From Fischerella sp. CENA71 (GTDB lineage: Bacteria; Cyanobacteriota; Cyanobacteriia; Cyanobacteriales; Nostocaceae), in the NCBI GenBank assembly GCA_024239075.1, contig JANBVI010000020.1, forward strand, positions 1 to 64,000: a DNA stretch of 64,000 nucleotides, given 5' to 3'. Positions 12,487 to 30,207 of the stretch are shown here, piece after piece; the stretch's first letter is position 1, and each line of letters begins with the position of its first letter. The notes beneath the pieces are model-generated. The model was not told the origin of the DNA. It worked only from the letters and a program-made list of their open reading frames with translations, and ran no database searches. Made by a program: the position numbers and the translations under genes.

Positions 12487-12690
12487 ATGAAAGTAATGCT
12501 ACGGAGAAATAACGCTGGTACTTTAGTTGTGTATGTTGCCAAAAAAGACCTCGAAGAAGAAGTTGTCAAAGAAACAGAAAGCTCTGAAGGTAAAATTTTC
12601 ACCTTGGCAAATGGCTGGGAATTAGAGTTTGCTAACCTACCCGAACCATTAGTTTTACCTCAAACCTTTGAGGCTAGACGTCTCGCATAA
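12487..12690 (+). CDS. nifT: NifT/FixU protein
   Basis: This 67-residue protein starts MKVMLRRNNAGTLVVYVAKK and ends TLANGWELEFANLPEPL, the fixed pattern of NifT/FixU. Its role in nitrogenase maturation is still unclear. It follows nifZ by 12 bases, the standard nifV-nifZ-nifT order of heterocystous cyanobacteria. Confidence 0.94.
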   Translation: MKVMLRRNNAGTLVVYVAKKDLEEEVVKETESSEGKIFTLANGWELEFANLPEPLVLPQTFEARRLA

Positions 12691-12789
12691 AAATTTCTAA
12701 ATACTTGTTAGTTGTTTGTTATCTGGAAATATTAATTGTCATCTACCAACAACTAACCCTCATCTAGCAACAACCAACAAAATTTTAAA

Positions 12790-13326
12790 ATGGGCGGCAA
12801 ATACTTGACATTATCAGAATTTAATTTAGAAGGACAATTCCTTGGTTTTGTCGGTAACTCATCAGCAAATTCTAAATATTTACGTTTAGCGATCGCATCT
12901 GGAGAAGTAAAACTAAAACTTCCAAAACAACTGCGTGCATATCTAGGTGGAAACTTGCAACCAGGCGAACTTTTGCGCGTATTTGGTTTGAGCAAGTTAA
13001 ACACCCACAATGATAAAATCAAATTTAAAGTTTATGGCGTCAAGCCATTAGGCGTTTGTCCCAACCAAAAAAATCCTCAACAAGCTAAAGCCAAAATTTT
13101 AGTCTGCCAAAAATCTGGTTGTCGTAAACGGGGTGGCAAAGGTTTATTGTCAGAATTAGAAAAGATTTTATGTGAACGCGGATTGCAAGATAAAGTGACT
13201 ATTGAGCAAACAGGCTGTTTAAAATGTTGTAGTAGTGCGCCTAACTGTATTGTGCAACTTGGCCATAAAGAATTTAAAAAAGTGCATCCCGAAGCGATCG
13301 CATCTTTGTTAGAAGATCATTTATAG
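12790..13326 (+). CDS. (2Fe-2S) ferredoxin domain-containing protein
   Basis: The protein has 178 residues. The N-terminal ~85 residues form a small beta-rich domain of unknown role (FLGFVGNSSANSKYLRLAIASG). The C-terminal part is a thioredoxin-like [2Fe-2S] ferredoxin: ILVCQKSGCRKRGGKGLLSEL followed by TGCLKCCSSAPNCIVQL. The cysteines of C-x4-C and the later C-x3-C spacing fit cluster ligands as in NuoE/HoxE-type proteins. It comes directly after nifT on the same strand, suggesting electron transfer or Fe-S handling linked to nitrogen fixation, though the family also occurs away from nif genes. Confidence 0.85.
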   Translation: MGGKYLTLSEFNLEGQFLGFVGNSSANSKYLRLAIASGEVKLKLPKQLRAYLGGNLQPGELLRVFGLSKLNTHNDKIKFKVYGVKPLGVCPNQKNPQQAKAKILVCQKSGCRKRGGKGLLSELEKILCERGLQDKVTIEQTGCLKCCSSAPNCIVQLGHKEFKKVHPEAIASLLEDHL

Positions 13327-13367
13327 CATTTGTGAACTATTCGTGAACAATAAGATCCCTGACTTCT

Positions 13368-13480
13368 CAATACGGTTCGGTTAAGAATTTTTCGTCATGC
13401 TTTGGGATGTAGAGACGTGCCATGGCACGTCTCTGGTGGGTTTAGATGTCTCATCGATTTGTCTTATCCGAACCGTATTG
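13368..13480. mobile_element. MITE-like element, copy 1
   Basis: CAATACGGTTCGG (13368-13380) and CCGAACCGTATTG (13468-13480) are perfect 13-base terminal inverted repeats around a 113-base non-coding element. In its centre lies a perfect 24-base palindrome (AGAGACGTGCCATGGCACGT continuing to 13434; 13411-13434). Terminal repeats of this kind are shared with full-size cyanobacterial insertion sequences, so it may be moved in trans. Confidence 0.7.
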
Positions 13481-13492
13481 CCCCAATATTTC

Positions 13493-13595
13493 TCGGTTAA
13501 GGATTTTTCGTCATGCTTTGGGATGTAGAGACGTGCCATGGCGCGTCTCTGGTGGGTTTAAATGTCAATCGATTTGTCTTATCCGAGCAGTATTG
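13493..13595. mobile_element. MITE-like element, copy 2 (tandem, partly decayed)
   Basis: This is a second copy of the preceding element, offset by 116 bases and nearly identical from TCGGTTAA to TTGTCTTATCCGA. It includes the central palindrome at 13527-13550, with one change in the right arm (GCGCGTCTCT). The left terminal repeat is eroded and the right end reads GAGCAGTATTG. A tandem duplication or a second insertion beside the first would explain it. Confidence 0.65.
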
Positions 13596-13740
13596 CGTAT
13601 TGCCTGACTTCTTATAGACACCCGGAGCGTAGAAGTCGGGGATCTAGCTGTGTGCAATTTTCAGAGCATCACAAATTTTAGATTTCAAGCTTAAAGTTTC
13701 TGGTTTCAAGCTCGAAGTTTCTCACTAGTCTTGCTAAAAC

Positions 13741-13992
13741 TGTTTCGCGCAGCCTGTAGCAACTTCCGTCTTCTTTGCAGCAACATCCGCCTTCACGTTT
13801 GCGTGTTTCGCGCAGCCTGTAGCAACTTCCGTCTTCTTTGCAGCAACATCCGCTTTCACGTTTGCGTGTTTCGCGCAGCCTGTAGCAACTTCCGTCTTCT
13901 TTGCAGCAACATCCGCCTTCACGTTTGCGTGTTTTGCGCAGCCTGTAGCAACTTCCATCTTCTTTGCAGCAAAATCCGCCTTCACGCTTACG
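13741..13992. repeat. Four-copy 63-base tandem repeat
   Basis: A 63-base unit beginning TGTTTCGCGCAGCCTGTAGC starts at 13741, 13804, 13867 and 13930. Units 1-3 are almost identical and unit 4 has several changes. Since 63 is divisible by 3, the array is open on both strands: plus 13731-14075 and minus 14069-13734. On the minus strand it would encode repeats of KADVAAKKTEVATGCAKHANV. Neither frame has a convincing start (the minus one begins with TTG), so it is recorded as a repeat and not as a gene. Confidence 0.85.
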
Positions 13993-14271
13993 TTATGGAC
14001 AACTCCAAGGGCGATCGCAAGCTTCAGTTCAAACCCACCTGCGATTTCAATCCCAGTCTCATAGTTCAAGTCTAGTTAAAGCAGACTACTTGATTTATTT
14101 GAGTCGTCCTTAGACGACTTGTGCTATTAGCCAAGGGTTTTAACCCTTAGCGGTATATTTTAAATCAATTTGCTTATATAAATTTTTTGAGAAGTTAGTA
14201 GGCTGGCTCAGACTAAAAAGATGAGTATTTGTTAAACTTAAGTCGCTCGTTCCAGGAGTAGTTTCAGCACG

Positions 14272-21716: not shown

Positions 21717-22211
21717 ATGGAAAAGCGAATTTTAGGATTAGATCCAGGATTAGCAAAGTTGGGATTTGGAACAATTATCCACAAATCAAACCAACCTCAG
21801 CAGCAAGATATCTCAGTAGAGATGCTAGATTTCGGTGTTATTAGTACAGAGGCTGGTGCAGAAATGGGACAAAGACTACGCACATTGTACGAAGATTTAC
21901 ACACTTTGATAAAGGAATTACAACCCGATTTGGTAGCAATTGAAAAATTATTTTTCTATCGTATGGGCAATACTATACTAGTTGCTCAAGCACGGGGTGT
22001 CATCATGTTAGTTCTAGCGCAACACAATCTTCCGTATTTAGAGTTTACCCCTGCTCAAATTAAACAAGCATTAACCGGATATGGCAATGCAGAAAAATAT
22101 GAAGTTCAACAAGCTGTAGCGCGAGAGTTAAATCTAGATTATATCCCCCATCCAGATGATGCCGCCGATGCTTTAGCTGTCGCTTTGACAGCATTGTTTC
22201 AGTATTTGTGA
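21717..22211 (+). CDS. ruvC: Holliday junction resolvase RuvC
   Basis: RuvC is the endonuclease that cuts four-way DNA junctions made by RuvAB-driven branch migration. The protein has 164 residues. Acidic catalytic residues are in [14 protein letters not shown] (D8), [12 protein letters not shown] (E69 region) and [14 protein letters not shown] (the terminal Asp pair). [13 protein letters not shown] and [17 protein letters not shown] are standard RuvC segments. The start is ATG 21717. The last bases overlap a decayed minus-strand EAD gene. Confidence 0.96.
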
Positions 22212-22409
22212 AGTATAAAAAATCGATCTGAGCCGCCTATATGTATTTCTTTCCCTTCGCCAATATTGACATTATATTTACCTAATTTGGATGGATAAGT
22301 GGCGATCGCCATCCAAAAGTAGCTGACGCAAAACTGTTATATCTTCATCGGTTTGTTGTCCCTTTTCAACTCGATGCAGAATTTGCTTGAGGTGTTCAGA
22401 AGGTGTCAT
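22199..22409 (-). pseudogene. Frameshifted remnant of an effector-associated-type N-terminal domain
   Basis: From ATG 22409 the minus strand encodes MTPSEHLKQILHRVEKGQQT, then DEDITVLRQLLLDGDRHLSIQ, and then hits a TAA at 22280. Shifting by one base near 22284 restores homology: LGKYNVNIGEGKEIHIGGSD, ending at a TGA at 22199. The combined pattern matches the first ~60 residues of the protein at 26004-27197 (CILDRVSRHEHTEADILSLR, then VQLGKNIVNIGQVNGGEFHI). The rest of the gene (the effector) is missing, and the end overlaps ruvC by 13 bases. It is a decayed gene of the same domain family as the nearby system. Confidence 0.75.
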
Positions 22410-22596
22410 TGAATACGTTTGTGTGACTAGATGATAATTACAGTAAAGCAGTTTGCCTATTTCACTACTTTAGTAGCATTTTAATTAACTTTAAATTTTA
22501 AAGATTACCAATGGTTTTAGGCTAATTTTCCATAGTATCCAATTAGACAAGTAATAATAAGAATAGTAAGGTGGACGCAACAACCTGGAGGTAGTT

Positions 22597-25500
22597 TTGA
22601 ACGTAGCTAGTAAGGTAAATGCAATTATCAACGCATGGTTCGACTACATTGCTTTGGATGATTACAGTAAAGCCAGAATTGAAGCTAATAGTGATGCAGT
22701 ACAACGGCGCGGTGTAAACTTATTAGGTGACAATTTATTAATTGAACCAGCTACCTTTTCACAACTGCAACAGAAAGCTACCAAAGATCAAAAATATCAA
22801 CAGGAAGCGGTGTGGGTTTTGTCATTTCCACAAGTTGTACATATAGATAACAAAAAATCTTATCTTTGTCCTCTTTTTAGCTTGGATGTTACATCTATTC
22901 TTAAAGGAGAGTACCGAGAACAAGGCTGGAATCTTGAAGAGTTACAACTCGTGGAAGCAGGAGATAATTTAGCTACTTTCTTGGGGCTGGATGATGAACA
23001 ACGTGAGCAGTTGATTACCCAAGATGGACTGCGAAATTTTCTGGAGACAACCTTTGAGTTGAACTTTGAAACTTATGAACAGTGGATGCGCCAGTTTAGA
23101 ATACCTCGCTCTCATTTTCAGATTAAAGAGCAGCCATATTTATTTGAATTTTCAGGAGCAATATTTTCTAGGAATCTCAAACAAGACTTGAAAGAAATCA
23201 GGAAAGAAATTAAGTCAGGCTCAAAAAATTGGTTAAAGTCAGGACATCCAGCTCATGAATATTTGTTTGGTGTACCTCAGCCTGCAAAACATGAAGTTAC
23301 TTATATGGGTGCTTTCCCAATTTATGCACCAACTAACTCGCAATTAAAAGCACTGAAACACGCCCAAAGTGAACCTGTGACGGCTGTGCAAGGGCCACCA
23401 GGTTCTGGAAAGACTACCCTCATTCTTCATCTTATTGCTCAACAGGTAGTTCAACGCGCACTCAATTTAATTGAAACTGGTAAAGATATCAATAATTTGA
23501 CAGTTGTTAGCAGTACTAACAATAAAGCAGTTGAAAACGTCATTGACAAGCTAGATGAGTGGTTAGATTTTCAATCGTTACAACACGATTTTTTCTATCT
23601 CAAAGGAGGAAGTAAACTTAATATAACATCCTCTGGAGGTGCTTTAGAACATCTACAACAGGCTCTTGATTATTTACAAAATAATAGATTTGATGAAGAG
23701 CATCTTAATACTCTCAAACAACAAATTAAACAAATTAAAGATGAGTTAGTATCTGAGGAATATAATTATTTAGAACAATGTCGCCAAAGAGTTTTAGATG
23801 AAAAACGAAAACCTCAAGTTTTAAAACAGATACAAACACTTAAGCAACATTTAGACGAAATAAAATCCGAGAGAAACAACTCTCAAAAACGAGCATCACA
23901 ATTATCGGAGTATGACAAACTTCCAATAGAAGCTTACCGACAAATTGAAGTCATTTTTCATCATGCTTATTTGCAACTACCTAAAGGAAATATCTCTTGG
24001 TGGAAGAGGATATTACTTTGGATTACAGGTAGAACAGAAGAACAAATCCTGAAAAAAATAGCCAAAGATTGCCAAGCATTAATTTCAAATACTGAGAGTA
24101 CTATTTTTACTGTAGAAGTTCCCAGGACTCGTAGTGATTTGGCTCAAAAGATATGGTTGATTCGCGAATGGCTTGATAATGCAAATAAGCTAAAAAAATT
24201 ACAAGAAAGGTTGCAAGAATTTTCTGGAGACATAGCTATTACAGAGCAACAAATAAATGAAGCAAGTAAGGAATTAAGTTTGTTAGAAAATAGATTGGCG
24301 ACTCTACTAGAAGATTTTTACGCTTCCTTTCATCAAAATTTTCATGAGCAGCATAAAGAGCTTTTTCACCTATCGCGAGAATTTCTCACTCAACAAGCAC
24401 TGTGTTACAAAGACCGCGTAAAATCTTCTTTGGAACTTTATTCAAGTGTTCTGTCAGGAGGTGAATGGAAAAATAAAAAGAAAATGGCAGAAAATCTGGA
24501 GGAGCATATTAAAAATTTGAGTTTCATGTTTCCTGTTATTACATGTACATTGCTTTCAATCCGAAATATGCTCCCGTGGGTTTCCGAATGTGTTGATCGC
24601 ACAATTGTAGACGAAGCTGGAATGATTCCACTACATCAGACATTTCCATTACTGGTGCGATCGCGCAAAGCTATTATTGTTGGTGATCCATTGCAAATTG
24701 AGCCTGTAATTAGTCTGAGCAACCAAACACGCGATAACTATTACCAAACAGCATTTATTGATAAAGGATTAACTGAAAACGATTACCGTCGCTACAGTCC
24801 AGAGGAAGAATATAACGCTACTACTTATCATCGTGCTGCGGGAGCAAATGGAGAAGATAATGATCAAGGTCAAGGGATTCGTTTAATTGATCATCACCGT
24901 TGTCAACCTAGCATTATTCAGTATTGTAATACAATTGCTAAATATGGATTAGAGGTCAAGACACAACCTGTTGATTCTTTATTAGAATCACACTTAATTG
25001 CTTACCACGTTGAAGGAAATATCAGCAGAAATGTTAACCACGAAGAAGTTACTGCTGTATGTGATTTAATTAAGCACTTGCAAAATCAAGGTTATTTATT
25101 AGAAGACATAGGTGTTATATCAGCCTTTCGCGCTCAAGCTGATGCATTGAAGGAAGCCATAGCTAAAAATTTCTCTAAATTTGACCCAACATATGTAGGG
25201 ACAATTCACACTTTTCAAGGTTCGGAAAAGAAGGTAATTATTCTGTCAACAAAGGTTTGCCGTTTACAGGATAACGTTAGATGGATTAACCAGCGACCAA
25301 ATCTTTTGAATGTTGCTGTATCGAGAGCAAAAGAATTATTTATTTTGGTTGGTAATCTTTACCGCCTAGAAAAAGCTGGAAGCTACACTCGTCAGCTTGT
25401 GGAACATATTCGAGAGCAAGGAGTTATTGTAGAGTACAAATCCAAAGCAGAAATTCCTCAGCCACAGCCTGGAAGTATTCTAGTTTATGATTGTGAGCAT

Positions 25501-25980
25501 TTAAGACTTTTTAGAGAAGCTATTGAGCAAGCTGAAGATGAATTGATGATTATTACACCTTGGATTCGTGGAAGTGAATCAAAACAATTTTTGAATGATG
25601 TAGTTTCAGTTTTAGAAAGAGGAGTGAAGGTTATAGTCATATACGGGAACCAAAAGCCAGGAAGTGGAGAAAATGATAATAATGATGTATCAATTGAGAA
25701 CAATTTGAGAGATTTGTTTTCTCAGTATTCTGATTCGTGTTTCACTCGTTTAGGTCAAGACATACACATTGAAAGTGAAGGAACTAATGAAAAAATCTTG
25801 GTCTGTGATACTAAATTTGCTGTTGCAGGAAGTTGGAATTGGCTTTCTCATCCTTATAGAAAGCAGTGTAGTAAATCTTTAATCAACCCCAAAGTTCAAA
25901 TTCGCCGGGAAACCAGTATACAAATTTCTGACTTACCTTCTATTGAGAATATAAAAACTAGAATTTATCAATTAATTTAG
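22597..25980 (+). CDS. SF1 (Upf1/DNA2-type) helicase fused to a PLD-like domain
   Basis: The protein has 1127 residues. An N-terminal region of unknown fold (1-250) precedes a superfamily 1 helicase split by a long coiled coil. Walker A is GPPGSGKT (266-273). About 400 residues later come motif II VDEAGMIPL (D672-E673), VGDPLQIEPV, DHHRCQPSIIQYC, GTIHTFQGSEKKVIILSTK and NVAVSRAKELFILVG, as in AAA_11/AAA_12 (COG1112) helicases. Residues ~980-1127 resemble a phospholipase D-like nuclease: EDELMIITPWIRG, GVKVIVIYG and NEKILVCDTKFAVAGSWNWL. In that last motif the HKD histidine is replaced by Asn1064, while Lys1066 and Asp1071 remain. Start is TTG 22597, 5 bases after GGAGGT. A single-chain helicase-PLD architecture is known from Mokosh type II antiphage systems; assignment to that class is inference. 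Confidence 0.85.
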   Translation: MNVASKVNAIINAWFDYIALDDYSKARIEANSDAVQRRGVNLLGDNLLIEPATFSQLQQKATKDQKYQQEAVWVLSFPQVVHIDNKKSYLCPLFSLDVTSILKGEYREQGWNLEELQLVEAGDNLATFLGLDDEQREQLITQDGLRNFLETTFELNFETYEQWMRQFRIPRSHFQIKEQPYLFEFSGAIFSRNLKQDLKEIRKEIKSGSKNWLKSGHPAHEYLFGVPQPAKHEVTYMGAFPIYAPTNSQLKALKHAQSEPVTAVQGPPGSGKTTLILHLIAQQVVQRALNLIETGKDINNLTVVSSTNNKAVENVIDKLDEWLDFQSLQHDFFYLKGGSKLNITSSGGALEHLQQALDYLQNNRFDEEHLNTLKQQIKQIKDELVSEEYNYLEQCRQRVLDEKRKPQVLKQIQTLKQHLDEIKSERNNSQKRASQLSEYDKLPIEAYRQIEVIFHHAYLQLPKGNISWWKRILLWITGRTEEQILKKIAKDCQALISNTESTIFTVEVPRTRSDLAQKIWLIREWLDNANKLKKLQERLQEFSGDIAITEQQINEASKELSLLENRLATLLEDFYASFHQNFHEQHKELFHLSREFLTQQALCYKDRVKSSLELYSSVLSGGEWKNKKKMAENLEEHIKNLSFMFPVITCTLLSIRNMLPWVSECVDRTIVDEAGMIPLHQTFPLLVRSRKAIIVGDPLQIEPVISLSNQTRDNYYQTAFIDKGLTENDYRRYSPEEEYNATTYHRAAGANGEDNDQGQGIRLIDHHRCQPSIIQYCNTIAKYGLEVKTQPVDSLLESHLIAYHVEGNISRNVNHEEVTAVCDLIKHLQNQGYLLEDIGVISAFRAQADALKEAIAKNFSKFDPTYVGTIHTFQGSEKKVIILSTKVCRLQDNVRWINQRPNLLNVAVSRAKELFILVGNLYRLEKAGSYTRQLVEHIREQGVIVEYKSKAEIPQPQPGSILVYDCEHLRLFREAIEQAEDELMIITPWIRGSESKQFLNDVVSVLERGVKVIVIYGNQKPGSGENDNNDVSIENNLRDLFSQYSDSCFTRLGQDIHIESEGTNEKILVCDTKFAVAGSWNWLSHPYRKQCSKSLINPKVQIRRETSIQISDLPSIENIKTRIYQLI

Positions 25981-26003
25981 AGAATAACTAGCAAACTTTA
26001 ACT

Positions 26004-27197
26004 CTAAGAACAAACTACTCGAAAACCGAATTCCTTTTTAGGAACACTTGGATTTCCACAAAAGCGAGATGATGAACGGCACAAATTAGGAGGAGAATCC
26101 CAAGAACCACCGCGCAAAATTCGATATTCCTCATTTCCATCATTTAGCCATACACTACCATCTGATGGTGCGCCTAGATAATCTTCGTGTTCGTAGTCAG
26201 CACACCATTCCCAGACTAACCCATGCATATCACATAGTCCAAATTCATTAGCAACAAACCTACCAACCTCGGTTGTCTGTTGGCGGTAGTTTCCGCAATA
26301 ATTAGCTAAATTTGTTGTGATTGTTTTGCCAAAATAAAATGGAGTTGAAGTTCTGGCGCGACAAGCATATTCCCATTCAGATTCACTCGGTAAACGATAT
26401 TTTCGTCCTGTTTTCAGGGAAAGTCGCTGACAAAATTCCTGTGCATCATACCAAGAAACTCGCTCTACAGGTAAGTCGTTTCCTTTGAAATAAGATGGAT
26501 CAGGGTTGAGATCGCAATTGATTTTTGGGAAGTTTGCAACTATTTTCCACTGTGCCTGAGTGATAGGATATTTACCTATAAAGAAAGATTTTATATTGAC
26601 TATATGTTGGGGACGTTCATCTTCTTGGGATACTTCTTCATCTTTCGATGCTCCCATTGAAAATTTTCCACCTGGAATAGAAACCATTTCTAGGACAACA
26701 CCATTACCCAAATTTTCGATAAAATATTCAGCCTGTTTAACATAACGCTTATTTTCTCTTCCTTTTACATCTACAGTCACCACTTCAAACTCAAAAGTTG
26801 CGATCACTGGTTTAGGTGGAGATGGAAATAGTTGCGTTTCTGAATTGCTTGTCGCTACAAAACTTTTATCTGTAGACTGAGATGATAAATTAGATGGGAA
26901 AAATATTTGGGAATTTTGCTGAGGTAATTTTTCTATAGCAATGCTGCGAACTAATTCCGACCATAATTCTTGAATTATAGCTTTGATGGTTTCAGCATCA
27001 GCACCCTGGTAAATGCGATCGCCAATATGAAATTCTCCTCCGTTTACCTGTCCAATATTGACAATATTCTTACCTAGCTGCACCAAATCGTCGTTACCAG
27101 CATTAAGTAACTGACGCAAAGATAAAATATCCGCTTCAGTGTGTTCATGTCTGGAAACACGATCCAAAATACAACTTATTTCATCCTCAATCGCCAT
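26004..27197 (-). CDS. EAD-type N-terminal domain fused to a non-catalytic FGE-sulfatase-like domain
   Basis: The protein has 397 residues. Residues 1-75 form a small helical-plus-motif domain ending VNIGQVNGGEFHIGDRIYQG and ADAETIKAIIQEL. This arrangement recurs at the N-terminus of cyanobacterial conflict-system proteins with NACHT, caspase or FGE domains and is described as an effector-associated domain. After a linker, residues ~155-397 form an FGE-sulfatase/SUMF1 domain: MVSIPGGKFSMGASKDE, YPITQAQWKIV, LPSESEWEYACRAR, CDMHGLVWEWC, RILRGGSWDSPPNLCRSSSR. The C-x4-C catalytic pair of true FGE is replaced by WDSPPNL, so formylglycine synthesis is not expected; a lectin- or binding-type role is likelier. 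It is the last gene of a three-gene minus-strand operon, converging on the helicase gene 23 bases away. Confidence 0.85.
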   Translation of the reverse strand: MAIEDEISCILDRVSRHEHTEADILSLRQLLNAGNDDLVQLGKNIVNIGQVNGGEFHIGDRIYQGADAETIKAIIQELWSELVRSIAIEKLPQQNSQIFFPSNLSSQSTDKSFVATSNSETQLFPSPPKPVIATFEFEVVTVDVKGRENKRYVKQAEYFIENLGNGVVLEMVSIPGGKFSMGASKDEEVSQEDERPQHIVNIKSFFIGKYPITQAQWKIVANFPKINCDLNPDPSYFKGNDLPVERVSWYDAQEFCQRLSLKTGRKYRLPSESEWEYACRARTSTPFYFGKTITTNLANYCGNYRQQTTEVGRFVANEFGLCDMHGLVWEWCADYEHEDYLGAPSDGSVWLNDGNEEYRILRGGSWDSPPNLCRSSSRFCGNPSVPKKEFGFRVVCS

Positions 27198-27224
27198 TTA
27201 TGATTATGCTATAAGTTTCAAAGT

Positions 27225-27854
27225 TTAATTTTTATTAATAACATCACCAATATGGAAATTTTGAACATCACGCACTTCATTAATATTAGTAATAAACTTC
27301 CCATACTGATTTATTGTGTCAGCAATTTTATTAATCTTCTGAATCGCTTGAAGCTGAACTTCCTCCCATCCCTTACTCGGTAAACCTTTACCGCCTCTAA
27401 GTTTAGCAATCACAAAATCTCCTGCATCCATATCGAAATGAGGAATTTGTTCTGCATTATGTAACCGTGATGCAGTTTCAGGTACAGCTTTGCTCAGGTG
27501 ATTCATTAAATTAGAAACCTTCACTTCTGTATCACCAGGTTTATTAGCTGCACCTTGCAAAGCTTCCAGAAAATGATATGTGTAAATACTGTTTGATTCA
27601 TCTTTGATCCAAGATTTTTGTTCTCCTTCTGATGATGTAAAAACAACTCTACCTTTACCTTGTCGTGTTGCTTCCTGATTATTCAGCACTCGGATATGTT
27701 CTTGATGATCAGGATACGCACATAATTCAGGATCAATTAAAGCAGCATATATTGCTTGAGTATCTTTGACTGTCACTGGCAAAGATAACTTACTATAAGC
27801 AGATTCACCAACGCCAATTAATAAAGCATAACCCTGAGTAAATTTATCATTCAT
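27225..27854 (-). CDS. Caspase-like (peptidase C14) protein lacking its catalytic centre
   Basis: The protein has 209 residues. It opens like a bacterial caspase homologue (GYALLIGVGESAYSKLSLPV, then VKDTQAIYAALIDPELCAYP and HIRVLNNQEATRQ) and from about residue 67 continues directly with the late part of the fold (GKGRVVFTSSEGEQKSWI, SIYTYHFLEALQGAA, PHFDMDAGDFVIAK). The intervening ~110 residues that normally hold the histidine (SGHG) and the cysteine (D-x-C-H) are absent, with no frameshift at the junction. A protease activity is therefore excluded unless the deletion is recent and the gene dead. The C-terminal tail (NINEVRDVQNFHIGDVINKN) repeats the FHIGD motif of the EAD-type domain. It lies between its operon partners with 48- and 27-base spacers. 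Confidence 0.8.
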   Translation of the reverse strand: MNDKFTQGYALLIGVGESAYSKLSLPVTVKDTQAIYAALIDPELCAYPDHQEHIRVLNNQEATRQGKGRVVFTSSEGEQKSWIKDESNSIYTYHFLEALQGAANKPGDTEVKVSNLMNHLSKAVPETASRLHNAEQIPHFDMDAGDFVIAKLRGGKGLPSKGWEEVQLQAIQKINKIADTINQYGKFITNINEVRDVQNFHIGDVINKN

Positions 27855-27902
27855 TGATATTTAACCTCAATACCATCAACTAGTTACTATTAAACTAATT
27901 AC

Positions 27903-28835
27903 TTACTCTTCATATCTACTAACACGGAAAATCACATAGTTATAAGGCAGGGTAGCAGAATAATCTTCCTTTGTGACGATCGCACCCATATCTGGTTTAT
28001 AAACCCACTCACTCCAGTTAATCGCGGTTTCATCAGGAACCTGGACAGCGATATAATTACCTTCTGCTAAGGAAACTCCCATAGGCGCTTGGTCAAAATC
28101 GAGACCAAGGTAAAACTTTTGTACAGCGACATTTTCGTGACGTTGCGCTAGTAACTTGACAACACCTAAAGTAATTTCCGTAAACGGTGCGATCGCAGGC
28201 TGTGCAGTTGTTAAAAGTTTGAGTCCACTTTGAAATGGTGAAGATTCTAAAGCACCCAACAATGCTTGATCTTCTTCATTTTTGACATTTACCGTCGAAC
28301 ATTCAAAAGCGACTCCTTGTGAACTTACATTCAAACCGATAAAAACAGGATAACCAGCAACACCTGCTGAGTGTCCTTCTCTGACTCGGTAGGTTTGGCT
28401 GAAGCTAATTGATTCTTGGATTTCAGCTACTTGGTTACGTGCTGCAAAAGTCACCAAGACATTGTGTGTTCCACCCCCAGGATACTTTTCAATATGCAAG
28501 CGATCTAGCCGAATATTAATCCGGCTTTTTTTAAGAGTCCGATCCGGTTCAATTGCACCCGCATGTTGAATAATTTGCGGCTGATCAAAACTTGATTTCC
28601 GTAAGCCGATATAGCCAAATTGATGAGTTCCATACAGCCACGGTTGATCTTGAAAGATATTCAAAGCTTCTAAAATTCCTTTGCCTCCCCTTGTGGCTGT
28701 TGTATCATCACTAACATCAACCACATAATCAGGGTCTTGCATTTGTTTCAGCTTTGCAGCTATTTGCTCCGAATCTTCGTACTCACCAATGGCTTTGATA
28801 TCTCTAAATAGACTAATAATTTCTTCAGTTGGCAT
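27903..28835 (-). CDS. Unrecognised 310-residue protein, first gene of the caspase/EAD operon
   Basis: I do not recognise this protein. It starts with a short helical segment (EEIISLFRDIKAIG). A Gly-containing stretch follows (TTATRGGKGILEALNIFQD), then a beta-rich region of about 220 residues without membrane spans or a signal peptide (for example INIRLDRLHIEKYPGGGTHN, VLVTFAARNQVAEI, YPVFIGLNVSSQGVAFEC). Its length and completeness argue for a functional gene. It leads the operon that continues with the caspase-like and EAD-FGE genes, so it is presumably part of the same system, perhaps as its sensor or effector; this rests on context only. The promoter must lie in 28836-29056, divergent from the DUF433 gene. 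Confidence 0.75.
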   Translation of the reverse strand: MPTEEIISLFRDIKAIGEYEDSEQIAAKLKQMQDPDYVVDVSDDTTATRGGKGILEALNIFQDQPWLYGTHQFGYIGLRKSSFDQPQIIQHAGAIEPDRTLKKSRINIRLDRLHIEKYPGGGTHNVLVTFAARNQVAEIQESISFSQTYRVREGHSAGVAGYPVFIGLNVSSQGVAFECSTVNVKNEEDQALLGALESSPFQSGLKLLTTAQPAIAPFTEITLGVVKLLAQRHENVAVQKFYLGLDFDQAPMGVSLAEGNYIAVQVPDETAINWSEWVYKPDMGAIVTKEDYSATLPYNYVIFRVSRYEE

Positions 28836-29056: not shown

Positions 29057-29776
29057 ATGACCACTATTGACCAAAAGCCTGATTTACGCAACATCCCAAG
29101 TTACTCAATTTCTGAGTCAGCACGCTATCTGCTGATTCCAGTAGGTACGTTGCGCTCGTGGCTTCATGGTCGTTTTTACCCTACAGGAGAAGGTAAGCGA
29201 TTCTTTAAACCATTGATTGAGCTTCCTAACCCAGTGATACCACAGCTTTCATTTACTAATCTGGTAGAAGCTCATGTACTGCGGGTCATTCGTAAGGATC
29301 ATCAAATTCGCCTAGATAGAGTTCGTACAGCCTTAGACTATATTGACCATCAATTCAACGTGCCTCATCCTTTGGCTCGGATTGAATTTCAAACAGATGG
29401 AGTGGATTTATTTGTTGAATCTGTGGGAAAGTTGATAAATGCTTCAATGCCAGGTCAACTAGCAATGCGGGAAGCACTAAAAAACTTGCTTAAGAGAATT
29501 GAAGTGGATGAAAGTGGAGCAGCAATTAAACTTTTTCCGTTGACACGACTAACTGAAAATTTGACGGAAAAAGAATCTCCTAAAACCTTAGTGATTGACC
29601 CTAGAATTTCCTTTGGTCGTCCAGTATTAATTGGAACGGGAATCCCAACAGCAATTTTGGCAGAGCGATACAAAGCTGGTGAGTCGATAGATAATTTGGC
29701 TGATGATTATGGTTGTGATCGCCTCCAGGTTGAAGAAGCTATTCGATGTGAATTGTCTCTGTCTCAAGCAGCGTGA
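29057..29776 (+). CDS. DUF433 antitoxin-like protein with N-terminal DNA-binding domain
   Basis: The protein has 239 residues. The N-terminal ~70 residues (YSISESARYLLIPVGTLRSW, then FFKPLIELP and LSFTNLVEAHVLRVIR) look like a MerR/winged-helix reader of the type fused to DUF433. The C-terminal ~60 residues hold DUF433 proper: VIDPRISFGRPVLIGTGIPT, AILAERYKAGESIDNLADDY and VEEAIRCEL, a helix-turn-helix fold used by VapB-like antitoxins. The downstream PIN-like gene overlaps by four bases (GTGA), a typical antitoxin-toxin arrangement. It probably binds the toxin and autoregulates the pair. Confidence 0.82.
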   Translation: MTTIDQKPDLRNIPSYSISESARYLLIPVGTLRSWLHGRFYPTGEGKRFFKPLIELPNPVIPQLSFTNLVEAHVLRVIRKDHQIRLDRVRTALDYIDHQFNVPHPLARIEFQTDGVDLFVESVGKLINASMPGQLAMREALKNLLKRIEVDESGAAIKLFPLTRLTENLTEKESPKTLVIDPRISFGRPVLIGTGIPTAILAERYKAGESIDNLADDYGCDRLQVEEAIRCELSLSQAA

Positions 29777-30207
29777 ATAAAGTAGAAAAGCCGACTTTCT
29801 TTATTGACAGAGCTTTAGGAAAGAAATATGTTGCGGATGCTTTGCGTAGTGTAGGTGTAACCGTGGAAGTTCATGCAGACCACTTTTCGCCTGATGCACC
29901 AGATACAGAATGGTTATCAGAAGCAAGTTGCAGAGGCTGGTTGATTCTCACGAAAGATGATGAAATTGGGCGTAATTTTCTAGAGCAAATGGCGATCGCC
30001 AGTTCAAATGCTAAAGTTTTTGTACTCTCTCTACGAAATTTGACTGGAGAAGAAATGGCAGACATTTTCGTACAGGCTGTTGAACGAATGGAAAAGTTTG
30101 CCCAAAGTAATCAAGCACCATTCATTGCCAAAATCTACAAATATGGCAAGGTCAGAGTTTGGAAAAATCACACTCAATTGCTCAAGATACTAAAAACTAC
30201 TACTTGA
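29773..30207 (+). CDS. DUF5615 PIN-like toxin
   Basis: This 144-residue protein starts with GTG inside the stop of the antitoxin gene (GTGA). The sequence FFIDRALGKKYVADALRSVG, then WLSEASCRGWLILTKDDEIG and VFVLSLRNLTGEEMAD follows the DUF5615/Mut7-C-like PIN pattern: an N-terminal Asp (here in FIDRALG) and a T-K/R-D-x-D/E motif with acidic residues for metal binding. Such proteins are RNase toxins paired with DUF433 proteins. The C-terminal 30 residues (PFIAKIYKYGKVRVWKN) are conserved in full-length members. The stretch after it (30208-30314) has a short frame of unknown origin but no gene I can support. Confidence 0.82.
   Translation: MNKVEKPTFFIDRALGKKYVADALRSVGVTVEVHADHFSPDAPDTEWLSEASCRGWLILTKDDEIGRNFLEQMAIASSNAKVFVLSLRNLTGEEMADIFVQAVERMEKFAQSNQAPFIAKIYKYGKVRVWKNHTQLLKILKTTT

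Follow-up and report, generated by a model that had tools for sequence, protein, structure and literature searches.

A conserved P310–caspase gene pair beside EAD10 genes or a PLD-tailed SF1 helicase in cyanobacteria, and its shortened form in Fischerella sp. CENA71

Genes of the island in Fischerella sp. CENA71

The stretch of DNA analysed here (the window), 64,000 nucleotides of contig JANBVI010000020.1 from the cyanobacterium Fischerella sp. CENA71, carries an island in which the gene for a superfamily 1 (SF1) helicase with a C-terminal PLD-like domain faces three genes on the opposite strand. These encode a protein joining an effector-associated domain (EAD10) to an FGE-sulfatase domain (EAD-FGE), a caspase-like protein, and a protein of 310 residues that we call P310. 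P310 and the caspase were shown to form a conserved gene pair, which lies beside EAD10 genes or beside a PLD-tailed SF1 helicase. An earlier, preliminary description of the window had placed all four genes correctly, and re-reading of the open reading frame (ORF) coordinates gave the same distance of 23 bases from stop to stop. The features are:

22201..22410, minus strand: broken EAD10 copy whose two pieces do not share a frame (PF19954 at 22284-22409, 4.3e-9, and at 22232-22288, 4.6e-6)
22597..25980, plus strand: MkoC-like SF1 helicase, 1127 residues, TTG start, with a degenerate C-terminal PLD (N-x-K instead of H-x-K)
25981..26003: gap of 23 bases between the facing stop codons
26004..27197, minus strand: EAD10-FGE protein, 397 residues, proposed sensor/adaptor
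27225..27854, minus strand: caspase-like protein, 209 residues, 348 bases gone in frame, EAD10-like C-terminal tail kept
27903..28835, minus strand: P310, 310 residues, no Pfam match, partner of defence proteases

Pfam assigned AAA_11/AAA_12 and PLDc_2 (9e-7) to the helicase, whose TTG start has GGAGG immediately 5' of it, and EAD10 (5.9e-25) and FGE-sulfatase (4.5e-52) to the EAD-FGE protein. In the window's caspase the Peptidase_C14 match is confined to the last third (profile positions 152-224 of 233). Compared with its relatives, the gene lacks 348 bases in frame, including the SGHG and D-[SC]-C-H segments. Of 31 close caspases, the window's included, 29 have the catalytic His as well as the catalytic Cys. 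Two members of their blast cluster that are more distant, L027 at 2098 and L129, were kept out of this tally; L129 has the dyad (L-numbers denote loci and G-numbers genomes). The exceptions are the window, which has neither residue, and L025, where P310 is fused to the caspase and the His part of the caspase is gone. With both catalytic residues deleted, this caspase cannot work as a protease in the window. The preliminary description had missed this deletion, as it had the second, broken EAD10 between ruvC and the helicase gene; a decayed EAD10 remnant was spotted by eye at the equivalent site in Westiellopsis (L016).

Linkage and layout across the family

The survey drew on 218 genomes from a single cyanobacterial family, with sizes of about 5 to 13 Mb. 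Homologues were split into classes by identity after the listings had been viewed (55% or more for the helicase, with clear fragments of its type also accepted; 70% or more for the caspase). Of the two listings behind the helicase and caspase counts, one was used without 13 partial or second-piece rows and the other without one broken fragment (G338); four P310 fragments were counted for the neighbourhood of helicase and caspase and are not among the 20 P310 places. The clade helicase and the close caspase each occur at 29 places, and a P310 match, fragments included, in 21 of the 218 genomes. Within 15 kb of the clade helicase, the close caspase was found at 16 of 29 places and P310 at 9 of 29 (fragments counted), whereas none of 62 weaker helicases had caspase or P310 within that distance and none of 45 weaker caspases had P310. 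P310 lies at most 3 kb from the close caspase at 17 of its 20 places, the exceptions being two contig ends and Westiellopsis, where a TIR gene is found. Co-presence in one genome was likewise in excess for caspase with helicase (21 genomes against 3.5 expected) and for P310 with helicase (12 against 2.4), with no such excess in the weaker classes (5 against 3.5, and 5 against 5.3). Because the genomes are related and hence not independent, p-values exaggerate the case; firmer ground is offered by the contrast with the control classes. The linkage of helicase, caspase and P310 is real. Weaker helicase homologues (~40% identity) were rejected as members, given this lack of linkage; they mostly match just to residue 945, ahead of the PLD. 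One of them, on a plasmid (L150), adjoins partition and mobilisation genes.

Twenty-seven of the 29 clade helicase loci were read, that is, all except G533:C151 and G423:C259. An FGE-family gene faces the helicase tail-to-tail in 22 of them, with gaps of -8 to 23 bases in 19 pairs and of 113, 163 and 906 in the other three. The FGE ORF also bears EAD10 in 16 of these 22 pairs. The six without it are L116 (EAD10 in the next ORF), L125 (EAD1 instead), L029 (cut by the stretch end) and L115, L123 and L127 (short), and L128 combines EAD1 with EAD10, so that EADs are swapped within the family. A facing FGE gene is missing from five loci, four of them cut by a stretch or contig end (L010, L020, L121, L130); at the fifth, L133, a truncated helicase stands opposite an EAD10-only ORF. 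Broken helicases occur at some loci (L111, L132). With the facing pair this common and the weaker helicases unlinked, the earlier suggestion that helicase and caspase operon belong to one island is borne out, albeit as a partly loose association.

The fullest gene order, seen at L011, L021 and L022, is membrane-NERD, P310, caspase, helicase and facing EAD10-FGE. L011, L109, L111, L115 and L116 have the caspase directly 5' of the helicase, 102-241 bases away and on the same strand, and at L129 a more distant caspase precedes the helicase by 194 bases; in the window, L113 and L114 the caspase sits behind the EAD-FGE gene. The membrane-NERD protein has 218 residues, N-terminal hydrophobic stretches (by eye) and a PF08378 match (3.2e-12 in the one member scanned). 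Its cluster is present in 16 of the 27 helicase loci; in 11 of them it precedes P310, caspase or helicase by 260 bases at most, in the others it is 0.7 to 3.9 kb away, and no relative of it was found in the window genome at E 0.001. Small HNH endonuclease-like ORFs (by eye; cluster c13) lie between caspase and helicase in L010, L029, L112 and L121, L112 having a DDE transposase as well, which suggests that such insertions split a once-compact operon. EAD-bearing NTPase-type genes adjoin P310–caspase in L009, L010 and L020; at L009:2355-8533 the neighbours are an EAD10-VMAP-C protein, an AAA ATPase (its cluster annotated MoxR in Tolypothrix) and a Roc-COR GTPase protein.

The best PADLOC model for the window's helicase was MkoC, the Mokosh II protein (2.4e-98), in keeping with the parallel to Mokosh type II drawn in the preliminary description, and SF1 helicase and PLD are indeed joined in one chain. 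A catalytic HKD motif in the PLD domain is a feature of Mokosh type II. Its His is replaced by Asn in all 23 helicases that have the region, and its Lys by Arg in 10, whereas a relative on an Acinetobacter plasmid (L149), with an about equal MkoC match (3.5e-99), keeps H-E-K-I-L-L-I-D (H-x-K-x4-D). The cyanobacterial clade thus has a degenerate PLD, and since the His is lost throughout we do not file the helicase as Mokosh II.

The island is flanked by ruvC on one side and, right beside P310, by a DUF433/helix-turn-helix (HTH) gene followed by a PIN-like (PF18478/DUF5615) gene at 29057-30207, beyond which lies an ABC ATPase gene (named by eye). The DUF433/HTH and PIN-like genes, likely a toxin-antitoxin pair, cluster with a pair adjoining the L129 island (12518-13668), and the islands of L020 and L022 contain look-alike pairs (by eye; clusters c24/c25). 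Two further genomes of the same genus lack the island altogether for several kb after ruvC; in a third just ~0.8 kb past ruvC is visible. Elsewhere in the window, at 13741-13993, a 63-base unit is repeated four times in tandem (96% alike) with repetitive ORFs on both strands, and is probably non-coding.

P310 and the tail of the caspase

P310 had no match in Pfam (E 0.1), PADLOC or PDB sequences and one sub-cut-off match (0.095) in NCBIfam. It is conserved along its full length, with a mean column identity of 80% over 18 copies; a variable linker lies at about residues 37-55, where a basic residue would be the candidate site of a protease cut. A scan of one genome from each of 84,980 species, which needs conserved peptides and lets distant copies escape, gave 15 loci, all cyanobacterial. 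A profile search of 386 cyanobacterial genomes returned the known copies, one known fragment and weak matches (best 0.002), mostly to the first 77 positions in ORFs of ~1330-1400 residues, which were taken as chance. There was no match in phages and no relative in IMG/VR. A gasdermin-like P310 was considered from context and dropped for want of evidence.

On plasmids, tblastn gave five records. Three are cyanobacterial, with shortened copies (Tolypothrix and Microchaete), and the other two come from Rhizobium leguminosarum (39% identity over 71%) and Undibacterium (34%, in two pieces owing to a frame change). In both of these non-cyanobacterial records P310 lies directly 3' of genes for an AAA ATPase and an S8 subtilase, identified by PADLOC as IetA and IetS. 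The two are among 63 plasmid records with an IetS relative (E 1e-20), and the nearest relative of the Rhizobium IetS is that of Undibacterium (41%). From this position directly after IetA-IetS, P310 can be seen to accompany unrelated defence proteases. In Westiellopsis prolifica (L016), of the same genus and at the same site by ruvC, a P310 96% identical to that of the window is followed by a TIR gene on the same strand, and homology with the window ends 2 bases ahead of the caspase start codon. P310 is therefore the constant member, while its neighbour varies between caspase, subtilase and TIR. The preliminary description had taken the 310-residue protein for a new component, and a distinct conserved family beside defence proteases is what we find.

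The next gene on the same strand after the caspase is an EAD10 gene in 17 of 31 cases and the helicase in 6. The caspase itself ends in an EAD10-like tail. A profile built from 47 N-terminal EAD10s matched 28 of 28 caspase tails at E ≤0.002, and 25 of them below 1e-6 (database of 28). The EAD10 set came from an iterated search that had also caught caspase tails, and the profile took only N-terminal EAD10s from outside the caspase cluster; the tails of L014, L025, L122, L129 and L027 at 2098 were omitted. In a single hhalign comparison, EAD10 and tail aligned with a probability of 94 (E 1e-7, 27 columns). The FGE protein carries a full EAD10, and the tail covers EAD10 positions ~37-60 only. The element they have in common reads Q-x-G-K-x-I-x-N-I ... 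H-I-G-D. Of the 28 tails, 25 contain the motif [IVLF]H[IVF]G. The wider form [IVLF][HQ][IVF]G is found in 37 of the 47 EAD10s; other proteins from these loci, 161,070 residues in all, have it 21 times. At L014:15753-17810 (G197), caspase and EAD10-like tail run on into ~350 residues that look alpha/beta hydrolase-like by eye.

The RHIM core is given as G-(I,V)-Q-(I,V)-G in the available part of PMC7885112. G-[IVLFG]-H-[IVF]-G is present in 12 of the 28 tails, the window's tail having N-F-H-I-G. The shared element is perhaps RHIM-like, and we infer from this likeness that tail and EAD10 might meet in an amyloid contact. In the 7.47-Mb window genome, EAD10 matches were limited to the EAD-FGE gene and the broken copy at 22232-22409 (E 0.001; other EADs not searched), which leaves the EAD10 of EAD-FGE, apart from itself, with the caspase tail as its only partner.

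Proposed mechanism, alternatives and comparison with known systems

We tentatively read the island as a partly broken copy of a cyanobacterial module of abortive-infection type, a reading that we hold with confidence just short of even. P310 and caspase would be its effector cassette, the helicase and NERD proteins would act on invader nucleic acid, as in Mokosh, and the C-type-lectin-like FGE protein would serve as sensor or adaptor. Upon a trigger, its EAD10 would touch the EAD10-like caspase tail, and the caspase would be clustered and switched on; it would then cut P310, which would be an effector or the gate of one, leading to arrest or death of the infected cell. With the catalytic segment deleted and the membrane-NERD gene absent, the protease arm is dead in the window; the helicase/EAD-FGE pair and P310 are still open frames there.

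Several observations weigh against this reading. Of 29 helicase loci, 13 have no close caspase within 15 kb, and of 29 caspase loci, 12 have no P310 within 3 kb; some of these are contig ends. Many P310–caspase loci bear other EAD10 genes in place of EAD-FGE: among the EAD10 genes directly after a caspase, 3 belong to the family of the window's EAD-FGE and 14 do not, the latter including NB-ARC, NACHT-HEAT and VMAP-C proteins (where scanned). These next-gene counts support a link between EAD10 and caspase and weaken the helicase as the caspase's own partner; the caspase may be a component of EAD10 systems generally, with the helicase incidental. AlphaFold2 modelled P310 from 18 alignment rows with a mean predicted local distance difference test (pLDDT) score of 36, and since 16 rows gave the same 36 for the EAD-FGE protein, despite its known FGE fold, the failure probably stems from shallow alignments and is uninformative on P310. 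P310 could also be an inhibitor or chaperone. A search for the template of a diversity-generating retroelement (DGR) for the FGE 3' end gave a self match alone in its own genome (no reverse-transcriptase search was made), and DGR diversification of this end was rejected as the template repeat was not found.

The loose association could alternatively reflect neighbours in a defence island that act independently, namely a Mokosh-II-like helicase/EAD-FGE unit and a separate P310–caspase unit serving EAD10 systems generally. The pair does occur with no helicase in the stretch read (L009, L012, L014, L018), often ahead of the 14 other EAD10 genes just described, the helicase/FGE pair occurs with no member of the close caspase clade in view (e.g. 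L125, L127, L128), and the Westiellopsis P310 has a TIR gene and no helicase beside it. Independent neighbours would, however, hardly be expected within 15 kb at 16 of 29 places in genomes of this size, nor a caspase right upstream of the helicase in five loci, and at 194 bases in L129, and we regard this explanation as rather unlikely. P310 might also be a regulator of the protease (inhibitor, chaperone or co-protease subunit) and not its substrate or effector, an option to which we give similarly limited credence. Its conservation over the whole length, its lack of a domain match and the precedent of CanB, which forms a soluble complex with its caspase (in the available text of PMC12799240), would all suit such a role, but P310 remains an open frame both in the window, whose caspase lacks an active site, and in L016, where its neighbour is a TIR gene; at neither place would a protease regulator have a task.

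For the window itself, the shortened caspase might be a selected pseudo-protease adaptor instead of a decaying gene. The deletion is in frame with no stop after it, a second shortened form exists in the L025 fusion, and the ratio of non-synonymous to synonymous substitution rates (dN/dS) of the remaining part is 0.10 against L018 (other pairs computed gave 0.07-0.19, one near-identical pair 0.54), although most of this divergence may predate the deletion. With L113 as the outgroup, branch counts were 15 non-synonymous to 16 synonymous changes for the window and 12 to 26 for L018, leaning to relaxation without significance (Fisher p 0.22). L117 was dropped as an outgroup because it is nearer L018 than the window is. 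With so few changes, a recent loss cannot be told apart from a function still kept. The membrane-NERD gene is absent as well, and we think an adaptor improbable.

What is new here is the adjacency of P310 and IetAS, the EAD10-like caspase tail together with the EAD10 gene directly after so many of the caspases (17/31), and, in the window, the caspase deletion and the absence of membrane-NERD from its genome. Three lines that have been studied separately are thereby joined: Mokosh-type helicases, the EAD/caspase conflict genes of multicellular cyanobacteria, and IetAS. Small, conserved and found alongside two defence proteases unrelated to each other, P310 is a concrete candidate for their target, and the window offers a natural copy with the protease active site lost and the rest kept. 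In a bolder version that we consider a long shot, P310 would found a protease-gated effector family common to two unrelated immune systems, that of proteobacteria with the subtilase of IetAS and that of cyanobacteria with the caspase; the cyanobacterial caspase would be turned on through a RHIM-like amyloid contact with the EAD10-FGE sensor of a helicase-NERD-PLD system. If true, this would be a bacterial counterpart of the helicase sensor, RHIM adaptor and caspase of animal innate immunity.

Among known systems, Mokosh is likened to the island by the SF1 helicase-PLD fusion with its MkoC match and, as in type I, by a NERD gene nearby. Type II is a single-gene system, a trait not shared here given the facing FGE gene in most loci read (22/27); further differences are the replaced HKD His and the FGE, caspase, membrane-NERD and P310 genes alongside in cyanobacterial loci. 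The available part of PMC10952713 lists NERD for type I and PLD-like domains for types I and II. EAD-coupled conflict systems, for which EAD10, FGE lectin-fold sensors and caspases have been described (Kaur et al. 2020, 2021; PMC7159879, PMC8195603, as far as their available text goes), share EAD10, FGE (FGS) and caspase domains, swapped EADs and an occurrence in filamentous cyanobacteria, and FGE has been proposed there as a sensor (PMC8195603). Such systems carry one and the same EAD on two neighbouring proteins and have an EAD-bearing NTPase core (VMAP/MoxR/STAND). They differ in that the caspase here bears just the second-half EAD10-like element and has a helicase-PLD gene as neighbour; NERD is absent from the main text of both papers, and their available passages mention no facing helicase-PLD gene. 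An EAD10-bearing NTPase core was not found in the window genome at the threshold given above. The EACC1-caspase two-gene system has EACC1 5' of the caspase, a place taken here by P310, which has no Pfam match (E 0.1). The accessible open literature on Mokosh in cyanobacteria and on IetAS yielded neither this layout nor P310, which is no proof of absence.

IetAS, a catalogued defence pair of AAA ATPase and subtilase, resembles the island through the P310 homologue directly 3' of IetS on two plasmids, although IetA and IetS are not among the seven locus proteins scanned (the rest of the genome was not searched) and a partner protein alone is common. According to the available text of PMC12799240, unrelated systems pair protease-gated pro-nucleases with trypsin-like proteases or with caspases. 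Canu (caspase-nuclease) differs from the island in that P310 has no nuclease-family match, the caspase here lacks an Ig-like domain match and the partner gene comes first in our loci, but it shares the combination of a caspase with an adjoining conserved partner of a kind seen with several protease types. Bacterial amyloid signalling (BASS3/RHIM-like) differs in the NOD-like receptor (NLR), which the window locus lacks, in Gln where His stands here, and from the N-F-H-I-G of the window's tail, and the likeness is one of sequence; what it shares with the island, as set out in the available parts of PMC7889193 and PMC7885112, is a short element common to the adaptor and the C-terminus of the effector, which in some caspase tails reads G-I-H-I-G.

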